Origin: Granulimonas faecalis
GTDB taxonomy: Bacteria; Actinomycetota; Coriobacteriia; Coriobacteriales; Atopobiaceae
DNA length: 64,000 nt
Assembly: GCF_022834715.1 (NCBI RefSeq)
Contig: NZ_BQKC01000001.1
Span: 1,586,501 to 1,650,500 of the forward strand
Reading direction: 5' to 3'
Shown: positions 9,178 to 21,356 of the stretch, piece after piece
How positions within the stretch are numbered: the stretch's first letter is position 1
How the letters are laid out: the number at the start of each line of letters is the position of its first letter
Translations under genes and position numbers: made by a program
The notes under the pieces: generated by a model
Database searches by the model: none
Told to the model about the DNA's origin: nothing
What the model saw: the letters and a program-made list of their open reading frames with translations, nothing else

Positions 9178-12100
9178 TCAGCGCCCGCGGCGCCGCCCCT
9201 CCACCACCGTCACGGCCCCGGCGCAGGCGAGGGCCGCCAGGAGCGCCCAGCCGTAGGTGGCCGCCTGGTCGCCGGTCACCGGAACGATCGCCCTCAGGCG
9301 CTGGGAAAGGGTGGCCCTGATGGGGCTCCCGGTCTGGGGCAGCGTGGCGCCGGGGGCCGGCCGAGACACCTCGGGGCGCACGCCGTCCGGGTAGGCCACC
9401 TCGGAGGAGGCCGCCGTGGAGGCGTCGAGGCTGCCGTAGATGCCGAGGAGGCCGCCGACCTCGCGCCGGTCGCCGATGGGGGCCGACCCGCCGTCGCGAA
9501 TCACGCCCTCGGTGGCACCGGACGGGTCGGTGCCCAGGGCCGAGGCGGTGTTGGCGATGTCGGTGCCCACGGCCGCCTCCTCCACGAGGGCGTCGAAGAC
9601 GAGGGTGACGGTCTGGCCGCCGTCGATGGCGCCCACGGCCACCGACACATCCCCGGAGACGGGGTTGTAGACGGAGTCGGGGCAGGACATCTCGACGCCG
9701 TCGGGGAGCACCAGCCTGAAGCTGCCGGACACCGGGGTGACGCCGGCGGGCATCTTGTCGTAGAGGGTCACGTCGTACCAGCGGGTCCAGGGCTCGTCGC
9801 CGTTGGTGAAGGCCACGGTGTAGCGGATGGTGTCGCCCACCAGGACGGTGCCGGCCTCGCGACCGGAGAGGTTCTCAGCGGTCTTGGTGCAGGAGAAGCG
9901 GCTGTGGTCGGGGTCGCCGGGGACCACCTCGTGGACCACGTCGTCGATGAACGAGGGGTCCGTGGGGGCAACCTTCACCTCCTCGTCGTCGGGCACGGGC
10001 AGCCCGTCGCGGACCTGCTCCTCGGTCTCCTTCTCCACGTCCTCCCAGGTCTTGTCGTGGTCCTCGGGGTTCCACGGACCCGGGGTCTCGGGCTCGGGCC
10101 CCACGGAGGGCGGGCCGTCGGGGTTCTCGGGGTCGGGGGTGACGGTGGCGGAGGGCTCGGTTCCGAAGGGGGTGGCCACGTTGCCCTCCACGTCCACGGT
10201 GAGGGCGTCGGGGGTGACGGTGCAGTCGAAGGTCACCGACGCGGACGAGACGCTCACGAGGTCGCCGAGGCAGAAGCCCAGCACCCTGGTGGCGGGGTCG
10301 AAGTCGCTGGAGAACTCCGTGAGCTCGGTGCCGTCGGCCAGGGTGACCCGCGCCGACCCCGGCACGTAGGCGAGGCCCACCGGCAGCGCGTCGCGCACGA
10401 CGACGTTGTACCAGGCGCCGCCGGGAAGGGTGTTGGAGACGGTCACGGTGTAGCGGATGGTGTCGCCCACCAGGGCCACGGACTTGTTGGGGCGCCGGTC
10501 GTGGCCCGGCGTCACGTTGACGGCCTTCTTGGTGCTGACGATGTCGCCGTCGGGACGGGGGTCGACGTCGGAGGGCACCGGGACCAGATCGTGGTCGTCG
10601 CGGTCCTCGGGCTCGGGACGCATGTCGGGGGTGATGGGCACGGTCACCACCACCTCGACGCGCTCCGGGGTGCCGTCGGGGCCGGGGCGCTCCACGGTCA
10701 CCGGGATCTTGACCTCGGTGGCCTCGGGGTCCTCCTCGAGCTTCTTGCGGATCTGCTCCTCGAGCTCCTTGGCGATGTCCTCGGGGGTCACCGGGTCGGG
10801 GTCGTCGCCGAAGATCACGACGCGGTCACCGGGTTGGATGGGCTCCCTCACGGGCGGAGCATCCGGGTCGTCGGGATCGTCGGGGAGCTCGGCCTCGTCG
10901 AAGGGGCTGCCGGGGACCACCGGGCCCACGGGCACCCCGGGGGCGTCCGGCTCGTCGTCGGGGTCGTCGGGGTCCGGCGTCTCGTCGATGAGGTCGCCGC
11001 CCAGGATGTCGACGGCCTTGTCGGGGTCGGGCTCGGGTTCGCCGGGCTCGTCGGGGGCGGGCTTGGAGGGGTCTACCGTCACCAGGGCATCGTCCACGGG
11101 CATGCCCTCGGCCGGGAAGCGGGTGTCCCACTCGAACTGGTCGGGGTTGACGCCGTAGATGCCCGAGGCCTTGGAGGTGCTCGCAAGCTCCAGGGCGCCG
11201 TGGCCGGGGTCGAACAGGTCGGAGTCGACGGTCACATCGAGCACGAACCGCCAGGACTGCCCGCCGAAGAGGGTCGGGAGGCTGTCGACGACCACCTTGC
11301 CGTCGACGACGCGGGGGTTCTCGATGACGGTCTCGGTGCCGTCGGGGGCCACGGCCACGAGGGACTTGAGGGTGGTGTCGCCGGGAATGCCGAGCTCGTA
11401 GACGGGGTTGATGCAGGCCGAGTCGGCGGCGGTGTTGGTGGCGGTGACGGTGTAGCGCATCACGTCGCCGGGCCTCACGGTGCCGTCGTCGCGGGTGGTG
11501 TCGTAGGCGGTGGCGGTGAGGGTGAGCTCAGGCTTCTTGGCCAGGTCGGGGAAGACGTAGACGTCGAAGCTCCTGGAGGCGCCACTGTAGGCGCCGGTGC
11601 CCTTGACGGTGGCGGTGATGGTGGTCTTCCCCGCCGAGAGCACCCGGGCCCGGGCCCCCACGCCGTAGTCGGTCTTGTTCTCCACGTAGGTGCGGTCGGT
11701 CATGGCGTCGTTGGGCACCACCGAGATCACCGCCGGGTTGGAGCTGGTGAACTCCACGTCGCCGATGGAGTTGGTCTGGAGGTAGAGGGGGAACCAGTCG
11801 GGGTTCTCCTTGACCACGTTGCCGGCGTCGTCGAGCTTGTCGCGGAAAGCGGAGACGTCGGTGTGGTCCTCGGTGCCCATCCTCGTGCCGTCGGGGGCCG
11901 TCCAGTCGCGCTCGTGGTCCTCGTCGAGCTTGAGCTTGGCGTCGTTGGCGGCCAGGTCGCCCTCGGCCAGGCCCTCCCCGTTGGGGATGTAGCCGGTGCC
12001 GCTCTCGTTGAACAGGCGCAGGTCGGGGGTGGCCAGCTCGATCTCCACGGCGTTGTCGTCGTTGGCCGACTCGTAGTAGTTGACGTAGGCGGAGTCGTTG

Positions 12101-14976
12101 TGGGCGGGCACCCAGGGCTCGCTGTCGTCCTCGGAGGCCGCCGCGGCCTCGTCGCGGGGACCGGCGTCGGCGGAGGCGCTGGTGTACTCGACCCGCACGT
12201 GGTGCTCGTTGCCCTCGGAGCTCTTGTCCTCCAGGCCAAAGGCCTCGAGCTGGGAGCGGGTGAGGTCGAAGTAGGCCATGGTGTGCTCGCGGCCGCTGTC
12301 GTCGGCCGCGATCCAGGCGTGGGTGAAGGACGCGTCCTCGAGCCGGTCGCGGTCGACCTCGATCACGCCGCCCAGGCCCTCGGGCACCGCGCGGTCGTCG
12401 ATGTAGAGCTGGAGGCGGCCGGTGGGGGCCTTGCAGCTGGTGCGGCTCATGGTGGAGCCGTCGGGGTAGGAGTCGCCGAAGGGCAGGGAGCCGCTGGTGA
12501 CGTCCACGGGCACCACCAGGTGGTTGTTGGTGGCGGTGTTGTAGTTGCCGGCGTTGTCGTCCTGGGCCCAGGTGGGGGCGGTGTACTCCTTCCTCACCTC
12601 GTTGCCGTCGGCGTCGGTGGTGGAGAGGACCACCGGTTCGCTGAGCTCCCAGGAGGTGGTGGAGCACACCGGCGAGATGACCGCGCGGCCTGTGGCGGAG
12701 TGGCCCCAGTAGGTCTGGGAGAACGGGGCGTTCTCCTTGTACTGCTCGGAGCGGACCTCGATGTCGTAGAAGCCGGCGTCCGCCGGGGTCCTGGTGCCGG
12801 TGGTGGCGGCGCTGATGGGGTTGCCGTCCTCGTCCATCTGCTGGTAGTTGTATTTGATCTTGTCGTTGTTGTCGAGCTGGCCGCCGGCAGGGTTGTCCAC
12901 CTTGATCGGCGTCTTGGAGACGTCCACCTTCTCCAAGGGCTCGCCGTCGTAGTACTTGCTCCAGTTCTTGGTGACGAAGTCCTCGTCCAGCTTGAAGCTC
13001 TCCCACTCCTTGGCGGTGGTGTCGCCCGAGCCGGCCGAGCCCTGGGGAAGGGTCGTGTTGGAGGTGAGGAGCTTCTCACCCACGTAGTAGGAGAAGTTGG
13101 CGTCGATCTGGTGGGAGGTGTTGGTGCCCTTGGGGAGCCACAGGTAGAGCTTGCCGTCGTTGAGGTTGGCCGGGGCGCCGTAGGGCGGGTCGGTGAGCAT
13201 CTTGTCGAGCAGGAGCTCCCAGCTCTCGAGCTTGGCGTTGAAGTCGGGGGTGACGCCGGCGGCGTCGGCCATGGCCTGGATCTTGGACTTCACGTCGATG
13301 GTGAGCATGGCCACCTTCTTGGTGCGCTCGAGGTCGCCGTAGGCCAGGCCGTCGTTGTCGTTGCCCTGGAAGCGGGTGCAGTTGACCGACCCGCCGGTGA
13401 TGACCACGTAACCCTGGCTGCCGCCGATCTCGAGGAAGCCGCCGTTGCCTCCCCAGTGGGGCAGCAGGGTGCCGCCGGTGATGAGGATGGTCCTGCCGGT
13501 GTTGGTGCCGCCGCAGCCCTGGCCGAAGGCGTTGCTGTGCTCGGCGCCCCATGCCTCCACGAAGCCGCCGTTGACGGTGATGTCGCCGGCGATGGTGTGG
13601 TTGGCGGTGCGGGAGATGATGGCGTCGCGCAGGGGCCAGGTGCTGGTGCTTCCGGACATCCCGCCGGTGTAGGTGCACCCGCCGCCGATGGCGGCGCCGT
13701 GGAAGGAGGCATAGGAGTCGACGGTGCCGCCGTTGAAGGTGATGGTGGTGCCGCCGCCGGCGTGACCGCCGCCGATGGCCGCGCCCGAGCCGTTGGCGGC
13801 CTTGTCGTTGGAGTAGACGTGGAGGTCGCCGCCGTTGAAGGTCATGTCGCCGCTGTTCTCGATGGGGCCGCCGCCGATGGCCGCCGACCGGATGCCGCTG
13901 TAGACCCACAGCTGGCCGGGGTCGCGGCTCTCGAGGTTGGAGAGGCTCGACACGAGGTCCTTGCCCACGCCCGTGGAGGTCTGGGTCTTGCCGTCGCGGT
14001 CCACATAGGTGGTGCCGGCCGGAATCATGCCCTGGGCGGGTACGACGGGCTCTCCCGACACGTCCTGGTTGAGCACCTCGTCGTCGACCACGAGCACGGA
14101 GCCCTCGCCGCAGCGCAGGCCCGGGAACATATAGGCGGCCGGGGTGTTGGACCCGGTGTCCAACGTGGAGTAGTAGGAGTTGTGCAGGGTGTTGGTGGTG
14201 CCGTCGGCGAGGATGAGGTGGACCGTGGTCTTGTCGGCCACGTCGTCGCCCGACACCTCGACGGTGCCGTTTCCGGAGGCGGTGGAGTTGGTGGCGATGT
14301 CCATGGGGAACTGGCCCTGGATGTTCACGCCGGCAAAGGTGATGGTGGCGTCGACCCCGGGGGCGACGCGGATGCCCGTGGCCACGGCGGTGCCGGACCC
14401 CGCGGTGTTGCGGACGGTGTAGGCACCGTCGGCCTTGATCACCAGCATCGCGATGGCGCGGGTGTCGGTGGTGGTCACGGGGAACTGGCGGCCGTCCTGG
14501 TGCTGCGGCGGGGTCTCGTTGGACCCGCGGCCGATGCGGGAGTAGGTGACGTTTTCCAGGGCGTAGCTCGTCCCCGGGGTGCCGCCGGCGATGGAGAGGC
14601 CGCCGTAGTCGGTGAAGCCGTCACCGATGTCGCGGGGCTCGGGAAGGCCCTCGGAGGCCGCGGCCACCGGCTCGTCGACGGGCACGGGGTCATCGGGAAG
14701 GCCCTGGGGGTCCGGGTCGGCCTGATCGACCTGGTCGTCGACGGGCGCGGGCCCGTCGGTCCCGTCGGCCGGCCCGTCCGTGGCGCCGTCATCGGCCGGG
14801 CCATCGACGGTGCCGTCGACCTCATCGACGGTCCGGGTGTCCATGGGCACCTCCGGCGCCACCTCCATGGCCTCCGCCAGTGCCGGTAGGCAGGCTCCGG
14901 GCAGGCAGAGCTCAAAGGCCAAGAACATGGAGAGCAGGAACGCAAAGGGACGGTTTTTGGGTGTTCGCGCATTCAT
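9178..14976 (-). CDS. Giant cell-wall-anchored DUF11-repeat adhesin 1
   Basis: A 1932-residue surface protein. Residues 1-36 are a signal peptide (MNARTPKNRPFAFLLSMFLA...). The N-terminal third has many short beta-helix-type turns (AIGGG, FNGG, ITGG), like right-handed beta-helix adhesins. Middle Ig-like domains follow. The last third carries at least two clear DUF11 modules beginning VGDTIRYTV, joined by Asp/Pro-rich linkers. The C-terminus has LPQTG at about 1879, then VPVTGD at about 1898 directly before a hydrophobic segment and GRRRGR, so it is sorted to the wall by a sortase. It is a paralogue of the adhesin at 15534-21261. The frame is intact, with GGAGG before ATG 14976 and a good promoter at 15045-15074. 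The ligand is unknown. Confidence 0.85.
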   Translation of the reverse strand: MNARTPKNRPFAFLLSMFLAFELCLPGACLPALAEAMEVAPEVPMDTRTVDEVDGTVDGPADDGATDGPADGTDGPAPVDDQVDQADPDPQGLPDDPVPVDEPVAAASEGLPEPRDIGDGFTDYGGLSIAGGTPGTSYALENVTYSRIGRGSNETPPQHQDGRQFPVTTTDTRAIAMLVIKADGAYTVRNTAGSGTAVATGIRVAPGVDATITFAGVNIQGQFPMDIATNSTASGNGTVEVSGDDVADKTTVHLILADGTTNTLHNSYYSTLDTGSNTPAAYMFPGLRCGEGSVLVVDDEVLNQDVSGEPVVPAQGMIPAGTTYVDRDGKTQTSTGVGKDLVSSLSNLESRDPGQLWVYSGIRSAAIGGGPIENSGDMTFNGGDLHVYSNDKAANGSGAAIGGGHAGGGTTITFNGGTVDSYASFHGAAIGGGCTYTGGMSGSTSTWPLRDAIISRTANHTIAGDITVNGGFVEAWGAEHSNAFGQGCGGTNTGRTILITGGTLLPHWGGNGGFLEIGGSQGYVVITGGSVNCTRFQGNDNDGLAYGDLERTKKVAMLTIDVKSKIQAMADAAGVTPDFNAKLESWELLLDKMLTDPPYGAPANLNDGKLYLWLPKGTNTSHQIDANFSYYVGEKLLTSNTTLPQGSAGSGDTTAKEWESFKLDEDFVTKNWSKYYDGEPLEKVDVSKTPIKVDNPAGGQLDNNDKIKYNYQQMDEDGNPISAATTGTRTPADAGFYDIEVRSEQYKENAPFSQTYWGHSATGRAVISPVCSTTSWELSEPVVLSTTDADGNEVRKEYTAPTWAQDDNAGNYNTATNNHLVVPVDVTSGSLPFGDSYPDGSTMSRTSCKAPTGRLQLYIDDRAVPEGLGGVIEVDRDRLEDASFTHAWIAADDSGREHTMAYFDLTRSQLEAFGLEDKSSEGNEHHVRVEYTSASADAGPRDEAAAASEDDSEPWVPAHNDSAYVNYYESANDDNAVEIELATPDLRLFNESGTGYIPNGEGLAEGDLAANDAKLKLDEDHERDWTAPDGTRMGTEDHTDVSAFRDKLDDAGNVVKENPDWFPLYLQTNSIGDVEFTSSNPAVISVVPNDAMTDRTYVENKTDYGVGARARVLSAGKTTITATVKGTGAYSGASRSFDVYVFPDLAKKPELTLTATAYDTTRDDGTVRPGDVMRYTVTATNTAADSACINPVYELGIPGDTTLKSLVAVAPDGTETVIENPRVVDGKVVVDSLPTLFGGQSWRFVLDVTVDSDLFDPGHGALELASTSKASGIYGVNPDQFEWDTRFPAEGMPVDDALVTVDPSKPAPDEPGEPEPDPDKAVDILGGDLIDETPDPDDPDDEPDAPGVPVGPVVPGSPFDEAELPDDPDDPDAPPVREPIQPGDRVVIFGDDPDPVTPEDIAKELEEQIRKKLEEDPEATEVKIPVTVERPGPDGTPERVEVVVTVPITPDMRPEPEDRDDHDLVPVPSDVDPRPDGDIVSTKKAVNVTPGHDRRPNKSVALVGDTIRYTVTVSNTLPGGAWYNVVVRDALPVGLAYVPGSARVTLADGTELTEFSSDFDPATRVLGFCLGDLVSVSSASVTFDCTVTPDALTVDVEGNVATPFGTEPSATVTPDPENPDGPPSVGPEPETPGPWNPEDHDKTWEDVEKETEEQVRDGLPVPDDEEVKVAPTDPSFIDDVVHEVVPGDPDHSRFSCTKTAENLSGREAGTVLVGDTIRYTVAFTNGDEPWTRWYDVTLYDKMPAGVTPVSGSFRLVLPDGVEMSCPDSVYNPVSGDVSVAVGAIDGGQTVTLVFDALVEEAAVGTDIANTASALGTDPSGATEGVIRDGGSAPIGDRREVGGLLGIYGSLDASTAASSEVAYPDGVRPEVSRPAPGATLPQTGSPIRATLSQRLRAIVPVTGDQAATYGWALLAALACAGAVTVVEGRRRGR

Positions 14977-15074: not shown

Positions 15075-15258
15075 GGTGCTTTTAAATTCCGTAAGAAAGT
15101 AGGCGCCCGAAGGGGCCCGCACCTCTGAATCGCCCCCCCCGCTGCCTGAATACGGGGAATGGGAGGCGTCCCTATGCCCGGCAAGCCGGCTCCCGGCCGG
15201 GATGTCGGAGGGCACGAGGCCATGCTCGGACATGGGCCGTCAGAACCATAAATTGATG

Positions 15259-15533: not shown

Positions 15534-18500
15534 TCAGCGGCGCCGGCGCACCCAGACGGTCGCGGCCGCCGAGACCGCGGCCATGAGACCGAGGGCCGGG
15601 ACCAGGGATGCGACGTCGCCGGTCACGGGGACCAGTCCCCTGCCGCCGGTGACGGGTAGCACGCGGGCCTTGACGCCCTCGCGGGCACTCACGCGCTCGG
15701 AGGGGTAGACGGCGTCGCCGCTGTCCACCGAGAGGCTGCCGGAGTCGGTGAGGAAGGCGTCCCAGCCGGCAGGCGGGTCAAAGCGCGTACCCGGCACGAG
15801 CGGGACCCTCTCGCCGTCGCCCATGTCGGAGGGGAGCGTGGCGAAGGCACGGGCGATGTTGCCCACATCGGCGCCCACGGCCTCGGAGGTGACCTCCACC
15901 TCGAAGGTGAGCACCGCCTGCCCCCTGCCGAAGACGTCACCCGCCACCGCCGACAGGCGGCGGGTCGACGCGTCGTAGACGCCGCGGCAGGCCACGGAGC
16001 GGCCGTCGGCCGTGACCAGGCGGACGGTGGACTCGTCGACGGCCAGACCGGCGGGCACGGTGTCCTCGATGACCGCGTCGTAGACAGCGGAGCCGGGGGT
16101 GTCGTTGGCCAGGGTCAGGGTGTAGCGCACCCGGTCGCCCACATAGGTGTTGCCGTCGGAGCTGGTGAGGTTCTTGGCCGTCTTGGTCAGGGTCACGGCA
16201 CCGTCGGCGGGATCGGTCACGTCGCTCACGGGGATCTCATGGGTGGCGGGCAGCGTGGCGAGCCCCTCGGTGGCGAGGAACGCGGCGAGGGTGCCGGAGG
16301 GGACGAAGGCCTCGGAGACCTGGGGGTCGGCGGAGTCGAGGTCGTAATAGCTCGGCTTCATGCCATGGCCCCAAGCGCGGTCGAGGATGGTGCGGCCCGC
16401 GGCCCCGGGGCCCACCACGGCGTCGTAGACGAGGCGCACCGAGGTACCCGCAGGCATGTGGCCCGAGCGCACGCCGATGGTGCGGGTGGCGTCCACATAG
16501 GCGCCGTCGGCCACGGCATAGCGCAGGTGGCCGTCCTCGGTGACCTCGGGCGCGGCGGCCGGGGCGACGCCGTCGGTGAGGGCGAGCAGGCTCACGGGCG
16601 CCGCGGTGTCGGGCACCTCGACGTAGATGGAGCCGGGGACCACCGTGAGGCCGTCGGGGACGATGTTGCGCAGGACGGTTTCGTAGAGGGCCGTGTGGTC
16701 CTGGGTATTGGTGAAGGTGGCGGTATAGCGGATGGTGTCGCCCACCATGGTGCGGGAGATGTCGCGGGTGAGGTTCTCGCCGGTGAGGGCCATGGCAAGA
16801 CCGTCCTCGTCGGGATCGGCCGGCATGACGCCGCCGGACTGACCGGGCGTCACCGGGTCGCTGGGCTCGGGCGTGGGCTTGTTCTCCGGATAGGTGTCCC
16901 AGTCAAAGTCCTCCCACGGGTTGTAGGTGGGGTCGTCCGGGTCCACGCCGGCCGGCGGGTCGGGCACGAAGGGATCGCCGGGCTCTGGCTTGGGTTTGGG
17001 GGCAGGCGACGGATCGTCCGGGTTGTCCGGGTTGTCCGGATTGTCAGGGTTGTCCGGGTTATCGGGGTCGTCAGGGTCAGGGGTGGGGTGCTCCTCCTCC
17101 CACTTCTCGGTGGGGGTGGTGCCAAAGGCGAAGGCCACGTTGGCGCCCTCGGTGCCCTGGGCGTCGGGGGTCACCCGGCAGGTGAAGGTGAGCTTGGTCG
17201 ACTCGCCGCCGTAAAGGTCGTCCACATAGACGGCGATGGTGCGGGTGGACTCCACGTATACCGCGTCGTCCACGGGCTGCTCCGTCCCGTCGACACGGGT
17301 GAGCACCAGGGTGCCGGGCACGAACTCGAGGCCCTGGGGCAGGGTGTCGCGGATCACCGGCGAGTACCAGGCGGTGTCGGCCCCCTTGTTGGCGAGGGTG
17401 ATGGTGTAGGAGATCTCGTCGCCCACGAGGGCCCGCTTGGCGTCGGGATGGGTGAGGTTGGCGGCCTTCTTTGTCACGGAGATGTCGGCCTCACCGTCGG
17501 GGTCGTCGGGGTCGGGCACGACCACGGGGTCCTTGGGGATCACGGGCAGCGGCGGGATGGTGCCCGGGTCGACGGGGTTGGGGTTGTCGGGGTCGTCGGG
17601 GTCGGGGGTGGGGTCGTCGCCCACGACCACGATGTCGTCGGGGTTGTCCGGGTCAAGGGGCTTGGGCGTCCCGGGGTCCTCACCGGGGAGCGGGTCGGGG
17701 TTGACGCCCCAGGAGCCGCCGCCGCCAGGGGTCGGGTCGACGGGCTTGGGGTCATCGGGGTCGGTGGGACGGCCGGTGGTGCCGCTGTTGAGGGTGGCGA
17801 CGAAACGCAGGGTGGTAGACTGGCCGCCGTACACCGTGCCGGCGCCGGCCGAGACCGTGGCGCCGCTCAGGTTCCAGGCGTCGTCGGCCAGGTCGCTCCA
17901 GTCGAGGTCCTCCCAGACAAAGCCCTGCTCGGCCGCGGCCGCATAGAAGGCGGAGGTGCCCAGGGTGGTGGACACGTCGGGCGTGGCGTAGTTGGCCGCC
18001 ATGCGCACGGAGTCCTCGTCGAGGGTGAGGCGGCTGTCGAGGGTGGTCCAGAGGGTGGCGGCCTGCCATGCGGACCCCTCGGTGAGGTTCAGGCCGGTGA
18101 CCAGGTACTCGATGCGGTCACCGGGGCGCGCCGGCTGGCCGGGGTGGTCGAGGTTGCGCGTGACCATGCGGATCTGGACCTTGGGCTTGATGGAGGGGTC
18201 CGGGATGATGTTGACGGTGAGGATGTAGCGGGTGCCCGTGTAGAGGGCGTTCGCCCCCTGCTCCATCACGATGGTGGCGGTGCCGCAGCTGTTCACCTGG
18301 ACCTTGATGTTCTCGAGGTCGATGGAGCCGTCCTCGGCGCGGACGATGTCGGCCACGGCGGCGTTGGACGTGGTGCATATGACCTTGGCCGAGGAGCTCG
18401 ACTGGAACTTGAGGTTGAAGAAGTCGGCGATCTCGGCGTCGTTGCTGTGGAAGGAGCTGTAGGACGCGGTGATGGTCTTGCGGACCACCAGGGTCTTGTC

Positions 18501-21261
18501 GTCGGGGTCCACGGGGCCGTCGGGGTCGTCGGGGCCGGGGTCGGGGGTGGGCTCAACCTTGATGGGGTCGTCGGGGCCGGGGACCACGTCGCCGGTGGGC
18601 GGCACCGGCACGATGAAGGTGTCGTCCTCCTTGGCGTTGTCGGGGTTCTTGTCCACGCCCTGGATGTAGTTCTTGTCGGCGATGTACTCGATGTTCACCG
18701 TGTGCTCGCCGCCGCCCGCGGCCGACTCGAGGATGTCGAGGAGGCCGTCGCGGTTGGCGGGGTCGAGGTAGTAGGTGACCTTGGTGGCGTGGCGGGTCTC
18801 GGTGCCGCCGGTCTGGGAGCCCACAGCGATGTCGGGCCACTCGATGGTGGAGAAGGCCGAGGCTCCCACACCCTCGGCGGTGAGGACGATGGGGTCGCCC
18901 ACCTTCTTGCCGTCGATGCGCACCTGGAACGAGCCGGTGGGGGCGGCACAGGTTAGCGCCGTGGTGTTGGCGCTGCGTATGTTGAAGGTGAGCTTGAGGC
19001 GGTTGCCGGCCTGGCCCGCGGCGCTGTCCTGGGTGATCTGGGTCCAGGTGCCGTCGTCGGCCAGGTGGCCCCACTCGACGCCCTCCATGGTGAGCACGGC
19101 GGGCACCGGGTTGATGGTGGCCACGCCCTTGGCCTGGTGACCCCAGTAGCTCGAGGCGTAGGCCGGGTCCTTGGCGTACTGGTAGGAGGTCATGGTCACC
19201 TGGAAGCGACCGGTGTCGGTAGGCAGGGTGGCGGCGCCTTCCTCGGACTCGGCCCCGTCGGGCACCCACTCCCCGTCCTCGTTCTCCTTGAGCATCTGGT
19301 ACTTGAACTTGACGTCGTCACCCTTGTCGAGCAGCTCGGTCAGGGTCTGGTCGCCCACCTGGCGCACCACCTTGATGGGGTGGGCGGCGTCGACCACCAG
19401 GGCCGGGAAGGGCAGGCCGTCGTAGTCCTTCTCGAGGGTCTTCTGGTACTCGTTCGGGAAGGGGAACTCGATGTAGCGCTTGACGGTCTGGGTGGTGTCG
19501 GAGGTGGAGGGCTTGGCGATGTAGAGGGGGTCGATCTTGGCCACGGTGCCGTCGTCCTTGCGCACCGACATCTCGATGCGCACCTCCTTCTCGGCGTTGG
19601 GGGCGGCCACCCACTCGGGCAGCCACAGGTAGAGCTTGCCGCCCTCGAACTCGGTGGGGGCGCCGTAGCTGGCGTCCTCTCCGCCGATGAAGAGCTTGAA
19701 GTCCTCGAGCTTCTCATTGGTGAGGTGCTCGGCGGAGGTGGAGAGATCCACGGTGAGCATGAAGACCTTGTCCTCGGCGGGCAGGGAGCCGCCGAGGGCG
19801 GTCACGTCGCTCCACGTGGTGACGCCCTGGGTGTTGTAGGCGGTGTTGCCCACGCCGGTGAACTTGTTCTTGTTGGAGACGTAGACCGAGCCGCCGGTGA
19901 CGATGGTGTAGCCGCCGGTGCCGCCGATGTCGAACTTGCCGGAGTAGGAGGAGGGGTGAAGGGTGCCGCCGGTGATGCGGATGATGCAGTTGGTGGCGGT
20001 GGTGCCGCAGGCGCCGCCGAAGGCGTTGCCGTGCTCGTAGCCCTGGGAGGTGAGGTAACCGGCGTTGATGTAGATGTTGCCACAGGTCTTGTTCCCCCCG
20101 CCGGCCACCGCGCCGGCCTGGGTGGCCACCGCGCCGCTGGACCACCCGGCGCCGATGCCGGCACCGTGGTAGGAGCCGTAGGCGGCGATCCGGGCGCCGT
20201 TGAACCACATGTTGGTGGCCCCGCCGGCGGCGCCGGCGCCGATGCCGGTGCCGGAGCTCCAGTTCTGGTTGGCGTTGGTGCCGCCGTTGTTGGCGTGGCC
20301 GCCGGCGCCGTAGGCGGTGATGACGCCGCCGTCGAAGATCATGTTACCGGCGTTCTCCTGGGAGCCGGAGCCGATGGCGGCCGACCCGCCGCCGCCCCGC
20401 ACGACGAGCTTGCCGGGGTCGGGGCTCGCCAGACGGGTGACCGGGTCGCCCTGGGCGACGGCCGTGCCGTTGTCCAGGGTGGCCGTGGTGTCCACCACGC
20501 CGTTGAGCACCTCGACGTGGGTGGAGCCGCTCCAGTTGGCCACCGAGTCGTCGATGTAGAGGGTGGAGCCGGCGCCGCAGTGGATACCGGCGCAGAAGAC
20601 CGAGCTGGGACTGCTCACCGTGATGGTGTTGGTGGTACCGTCGGCCAGGAAGAGCCTGAGGGTGGTGCCCGTGCCCATGAGGTTGATGGGCGAGCTGTTG
20701 GTGTTGGACGTGATGGTGGCGCCGTTCAGGGCGATGTTGGCAGAGGTGCCCTGCTTGATCTGGACGGTGCCGTTGGTGAGGGTGCCCTTGAAGGTGAGGG
20801 GCGTGCCGGTCTGCACCACCACGGTGGTGCCGGAGACCGTATAGTCCACGCCCGCGGTGCCGCCGGAGATGGTGAGCGAGCCCACGGTGGTGTCGGCCGC
20901 CTGGGCCGCGGGGGCGTCGTCACCCTCGGTCACGGGGGTGGGAAGGGCGGCGAGCAGGTCTGCCGCGGCGGGCACGGCCACCTCGGAGGGGGTGGGGGCC
21001 TTCGGGGCGGCGGCATCGTCGCCCTCGCCGTCGCCGTCGACGGCCTCGTCGTCCGGGACAGCCTCCTCGGGGGCGGCGTCGGGAGCGGCGTCCTGGGGCT
21101 CGTCGTCGCCGACGGGCTCCACCACTGCCGCAGAGTCACCCCCCTCCCGTCATCTCCTCGGCGATTGCCTGCAGGCTTGCGCTGGGAACCAGCATCTGCA
21201 AGACGAGCAGGAGCGAGAGCACGAATGCAAATGTGCGTTTTCTTGGGGTGGATGCATTCAT
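15534..21261 (-). CDS. Giant DUF11-repeat adhesin 2, split by a poly-G frameshift
   Basis: A surface protein homologous to adhesin 1. ATG 21261 (GGAGG 8 bases upstream) begins a signal peptide, MNASTPRKRTFAFVLSLLLV..., but the frame stops after 41 residues at TGA in the 6-G tract 21139-21144. The remaining 1.86 kilo-residue frame runs 21125 to 15534. Removing one G joins the two exactly and gives about 1908 residues. The body has N-terminal beta-helix-like repeats, Ig-like domains, four or more DUF11 modules (VGDTIRYT, VGDEISYT, VGDRVRYT) and NPDNPDNPD linkers. The C-terminus has LPVTG, then VPVTGD, a hydrophobic segment and VRRRR. As written it would not be exported. It may be phase-variable, a pseudogene or a sequencing error. 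Confidence 0.8.
21139..21144 (-). other. Six-G tract that shifts the adhesin 2 frame
   Basis: On the coding strand ACG GGA GGG GGG TGA. With five G instead of six, the frame reads through to GGT GAC TCT GCG into the adhesin body. It is a candidate slipped-strand switch just after the signal peptide. Confidence 0.7.
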
Positions 21262-21280
21262 CTCGGAACCTCCGTTGGCC

Positions 21281-21327: not shown

Positions 21328-21356
21328 ACTCTACTCTGAAAAATAGATACTTTCAA
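21328..21356 (-). promoter_or_regulatory. Promoter of giant adhesin 2
   Basis: Leftward TTGAAA, 17-base spacer, TAGAGT, about 70 bases before the signal-peptide start. The layout matches the promoter of adhesin 1. The rest of the 264-base gap up to gltD holds an AT-rich stretch with no gene. Confidence 0.65.

Follow-up and report, generated by a model that had tools for sequence, protein, structure and literature searches.

A frame break at a short G run behind the signal peptide of a giant adhesin in Granulimonas faecalis, possibly a recent slip mutation

In Bifidobacterium breve, the genes bbr_0113 and bbr_1889 carry G10 and G11 runs between a Sec signal and an LPXTG pilin, and the lengths of these runs vary within populations (PMC9187656). 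Across the genus Bifidobacterium, the tracts comprise 8-13 G (PMC9187656, Table 1). Variation has also been described for a shorter tract; the six-base C6 tract of bvgS in Bordetella pertussis can vary between C6 and C7 (PMC1891110). An earlier note on a stretch of Granulimonas faecalis DNA proposed a comparable slipped-strand switch at a six-G run that separates a signal peptide from a giant adhesin, here called adhesin 2. The stretch, referred to as the window, is 64,000 nucleotides long (NZ_BQKC01000001.1, positions 1,586,501 to 1,650,500). In this study, we evaluated the proposal against the sequence of the locus, the rest of the genome, and the genomes of the family. The explanation that we favor, with a probability of roughly 0.5, is that a recent slip mutation in a short G run gave rise to an OFF or pseudogene allele of adhesin 2.

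Anatomy of the adhesin 2 locus

The features of the adhesin 2 locus are located on the minus strand. The signal-peptide frame (MNASTPRKRTFAFVLSLLLVLQMLVPSASLQAIAEEMTGGG; 21136-21261) starts at the ATG at 21261 and, as the earlier note had described, is halted after 41 codons by a TGA (21138-21136) that abuts a G6 run (21144-21139). The adhesin 2 frame is one base out of register with the signal-peptide frame. It begins just past its own 5' limit, a TGA at 21152-21150, and is open from 21149 to 15534 (1,871 codons). The arithmetic of the one-base offset was correct; the earliest start in the adhesin 2 frame, GTG at 21125, yields 1,863 amino acids rather than the 1,860 stated before. Since a stop limits either frame, any lone single-base lesion must fall within the 11 nt between the two limiting stops (CGGGAGGGGGG, 21139-21149), of which the G6 run is the likeliest place for a slip. 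Translation could restart behind the G run at the internal GTG (21125); this reading was rejected, as the product would have no signal peptide and would not be exported.

Upstream of the ATG at 21261, a GGAGGT motif resembling a ribosome-binding site was read directly at 21268-21273. A promoter-like site, TTGAAA-17-TAGAGT, lies at 21328-21356; this assignment is a consensus match only, with one such site found versus 0.2 expected. Similar signal peptides are found in adhesin 1, as had been claimed, and in the orthologues of two relatives (G022 and G073). The promoter, the ribosome-binding site, and the signal peptide of adhesin 2 look intact, in agreement with the earlier note.

The adhesin 2 frame (15534-21149) encodes DUF11 and isopeptide-forming domains and ends in a C-terminal LPVTG/VPVTGD followed by a hydrophobic and basic tail. 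PF01345, TIGR01451, and TIGR04226 were matched above their curated cut-offs, representing DUF11 repeats and RrgB-type isopeptide domains. By its domains and its LPxTG-like tail, adhesin 2 is a sortase-anchored DUF11/isopeptide fimbrial-type adhesin. Its tandem paralogue adhesin 1 (9178-14976, minus strand) is intact and has a signal peptide. A genome-wide search yielded only two sortase matches, at C2:37.5 kb and C1:45.4 kb, and no dedicated sortase beside adhesin 2 in the window.

The adhesin family comprises seven loci in the G. faecalis genome. Five of them combine a signal peptide with an open frame; the other two are adhesin 2, with its frame break, and a paralogue truncated at its 5' end. 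The truncated paralogue (C1:1113175-1118091, L085) is devoid of a signal peptide and N-terminus and abuts an IMP-dehydrogenase-like gene upstream; a search of the rest of the G. faecalis genome did not recover the lost 5' end. Gene conversion or inversion from this paralogue was rejected as an origin of the adhesin 2 arrangement, given an identity of approximately 45% and the failure to find the missing end.

Orthologues, repair, and the age of the break

The relatives compared were 140 family genomes, among which there was no second genome of the genus. The adhesin 2 gene is present in only two of them, G022 (Olsenella sp. KGMB02461) and G073, a single contig. In both, the signal peptide continues in frame into the adhesin (...AIAQSVVGEGIDSELI...), and a G5 is located approximately 4 bases upstream of the homologous point. 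A G6 at the break point was absent from both orthologues and from all intact paralogues. Viral contigs and plasmids were also searched for same-species sequence, and nothing was found.

Adhesin 2 shares 66-70% identity with the two orthologues, with a dN/dS of about 0.3 (NG86; dS is near saturation). There is no further stop across the 1,871 codons of its frame, in which about 1.25 stops per 1% divergence would be expected under neutrality. The dN/dS and the lack of any other stop indicate that the break arose recently, does not exist, or can revert. Adhesin 2 thus combines a single lesion, an open remaining frame, and intact orthologues, the features of a recent pseudogene. Another member of the family has been lost in a relative: adhesin 1 of G022 is broken mid gene, where 8 bp are duplicated in tandem (CTACTACG twice, L046:14850-14865), and this duplication is absent from G073 and from adhesin 1 of the window. 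Together with the other breaks, this duplication points to repeated young losses of adhesins via different types of lesion.

The status of mismatch repair was assessed by profile search, in which the controls behaved as expected. No MutS_I domain and no MutL match above the cut-off were detected in the G. faecalis genome, and MutS_I was found in none of 104 family genomes that are each at least 90% complete. MutS/MutL repair of indels in runs is therefore probably lacking in this lineage.

In the mechanism that we propose, a one-base slip in G6 would have shifted the sortase-anchored giant adhesin out of frame directly behind its signal peptide. Translation in the sequenced clone would start normally, produce a 41-residue signal-peptide stub, and stop at the TGA; adhesin 2 would not be exported because translation ends at the stub. 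With MutS and MutL apparently missing, such slips would go unrepaired, and reversion at a low rate would be possible. What the sequences show is the broken frame and its site, the intact orthologues, the lack of detected MutS and MutL, and an unexceptional run length; we infer a lesion that exists in the cell, arose recently, and is not programmed. A recent slip is supported by the confinement of the break to 11 nt that include a G run, by the two orthologues that are in frame without G6, by the dN/dS of about 0.3 with no other stop in the frame, by the failure to detect MutS and MutL, by comparable breaks in the same genome (an EamA-like gene at G7 and an internal lesion in a GH32-like gene), and by the other young losses in the family (the G022 adhesin 1 duplication and the 5'-less paralogue). 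Two points count against it: the extra base at G6 may be an assembly error, and a site right behind the signal peptide would equally be expected of a selected switch.

Homopolymer runs and the competing explanations

The window contains 19 G/C runs of at least 6 (16 of length 6, two of 7, and one of 8), versus 54-119 expected by Markov models of order 1-3; such runs are depleted, not enriched. The longest G run in the window, a G8 at 15133-15140 (minus strand), is located approximately 160 bp upstream of adhesin 1, and the G022 locus (L046) has no run of at least 6 immediately ahead of its adhesin 1. Frame retention at coding runs was examined in a 464-kb genome sample, consisting of 400 kb of stretches plus the window. 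Seven apparent frame changes were flagged at G/C runs; six of them mark normal junctions between genes, and the seventh is a real break, in an EamA-like transporter gene that changes frame at a G7 (C1:206901; L088:6901). The run in adhesin 2 escaped flagging, as the signal-peptide frame has too few codons to be scored. A GH32-like gene, whose label was taken from sequence and not from a family search, has a frame-shifting internal lesion that is not at a long homopolymer (L100:15892, minus strand).

These counts bear on the strongest alternative, in which the extra base arose in sequencing or assembly, the chromosome has the in-frame length, and the adhesin 2 gene is ordinary and intact. Indel errors fall in homopolymers, the rest of the gene is intact, and a second coding break in the 464-kb sample is likewise at a G7. 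However, another 58 coding G/C runs in the sample, 6-7 in length, retain their frame, which leaves systematic homopolymer miscalling unsupported, and the existence of breaks outside homopolymers signifies that real pseudogenes occur in G. faecalis. We regard an assembly indel as somewhat unlikely, yet it deserves to be taken seriously.

The switch proposed in the earlier note, in which slipped-strand changes of the G run would toggle export of adhesin 2 in the population, appears less likely still. Part of that proposal stood, in that the anatomy resembles the pilus switches bbr_0113 and bbr_1889 of B. breve (PMC9187656). MutS and MutL are undetected, the C6 of Bordetella bvgS does vary (PMC1891110), and other switch-like G tracts occur in the same genome. 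The run itself fits poorly: G6 is short and common, lies within the ordinary background at a length that is depleted, falls below the 8-13 of the bifidobacterial tracts (PMC9187656), has no conserved counterpart in the orthologues or paralogues, and is dwarfed by other tracts of the genome. Nothing shows selection for, or maintenance of, G6 as a switch. A recent frameshift or a sequencing slip is preferred over a switch because fewer assumptions are needed.

Much longer tracts of the same genome are located elsewhere. G24 (C1:427277-427300), G21 (C1:1925321-1925341, minus strand), and G17 (C2:74270-74286) lie between genes, and several G10-G12 tracts are also present. In a prophage-type DNA methyltransferase, a G12 at C1:1462894-1462905 (L069) lies between the ParB_N and N6_N4_Mtase halves, which are out of frame with each other in this assembly. 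This arrangement makes the methyltransferase G12 a stronger candidate for phase variation than the adhesin 2 G6. Another G12, at C1:698583-698594 (L066), constitutes most of the 17-bp spacer between TTGACT and CATAAT and is a candidate length-dependent promoter element upstream of small genes. As better switch candidates, these two G12 tracts merit priority over adhesin 2.

The frameshift site of prfB (RF2) has a UGA-C stop that closely follows a G-rich stretch resembling a Shine-Dalgarno sequence. A similar programmed +1 ribosomal frameshift at GGG-UGA-C, which would yield a little full-length exported adhesin, agrees with the UGA-C context, the G-rich stretch upstream, and the sign of the offset, but it is very improbable, as the orthologues are in frame without a shift, the site is not conserved, and the 3' RNA structure is not unusual (z = -0.85).

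Adhesin 2 among known systems

That an Atopobiaceae species without MutS/MutL controls giant-adhesin export through a low-rate G6 slip switch is improbable on the present evidence. If true, this reading would take the signal-peptide poly-G switch known from bifidobacteria into a further class of Actinomycetota and to a far shorter tract, and Atopobiaceae would be varying a large adhesin on their surface in the way that bifidobacteria vary their pili. It would also mean that a six-base run is enough in a lineage without MutS/MutL. If the break is an ordinary frameshift, the adhesins of this family are still lost repeatedly and recently.

Adhesin 2 shares with bbr_0113 and bbr_1889 a homopolymeric G run between a Sec signal-peptide frame and the frame of a large sortase-anchored protein, the two being out of register. 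In each case, a good promoter and ribosome-binding site are found on the short frame only, and the phylum, Actinomycetota, is the same. The B. breve runs, however, are G10-G11 (8-13 genus-wide) with mixed lengths in populations, whereas adhesin 2 has a G6 known from one assembly; a dedicated sortase is part of the B. breve cluster, whereas no sortase gene adjoins adhesin 2. Tract length (6 versus 8-13), conservation in G022 and G073, and a cluster sortase are thus the features of the Bifidobacterium type that adhesin 2 does not display. In bvgS, as in adhesin 2, the frame is broken by a change of length in a tract of only six. The product of bvgS is a sensor-kinase regulator, C6 is the in-frame length, and variation was observed in strains and cultures; the adhesin 2 break was read from a single assembly. 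Ordinary frameshift pseudogenes of surface adhesins have the same single small indel, the same open remainder, and intact orthologues in relatives. By the sequence comparisons made here, nothing distinguishes adhesin 2 from such ordinary recent adhesin pseudogenes.
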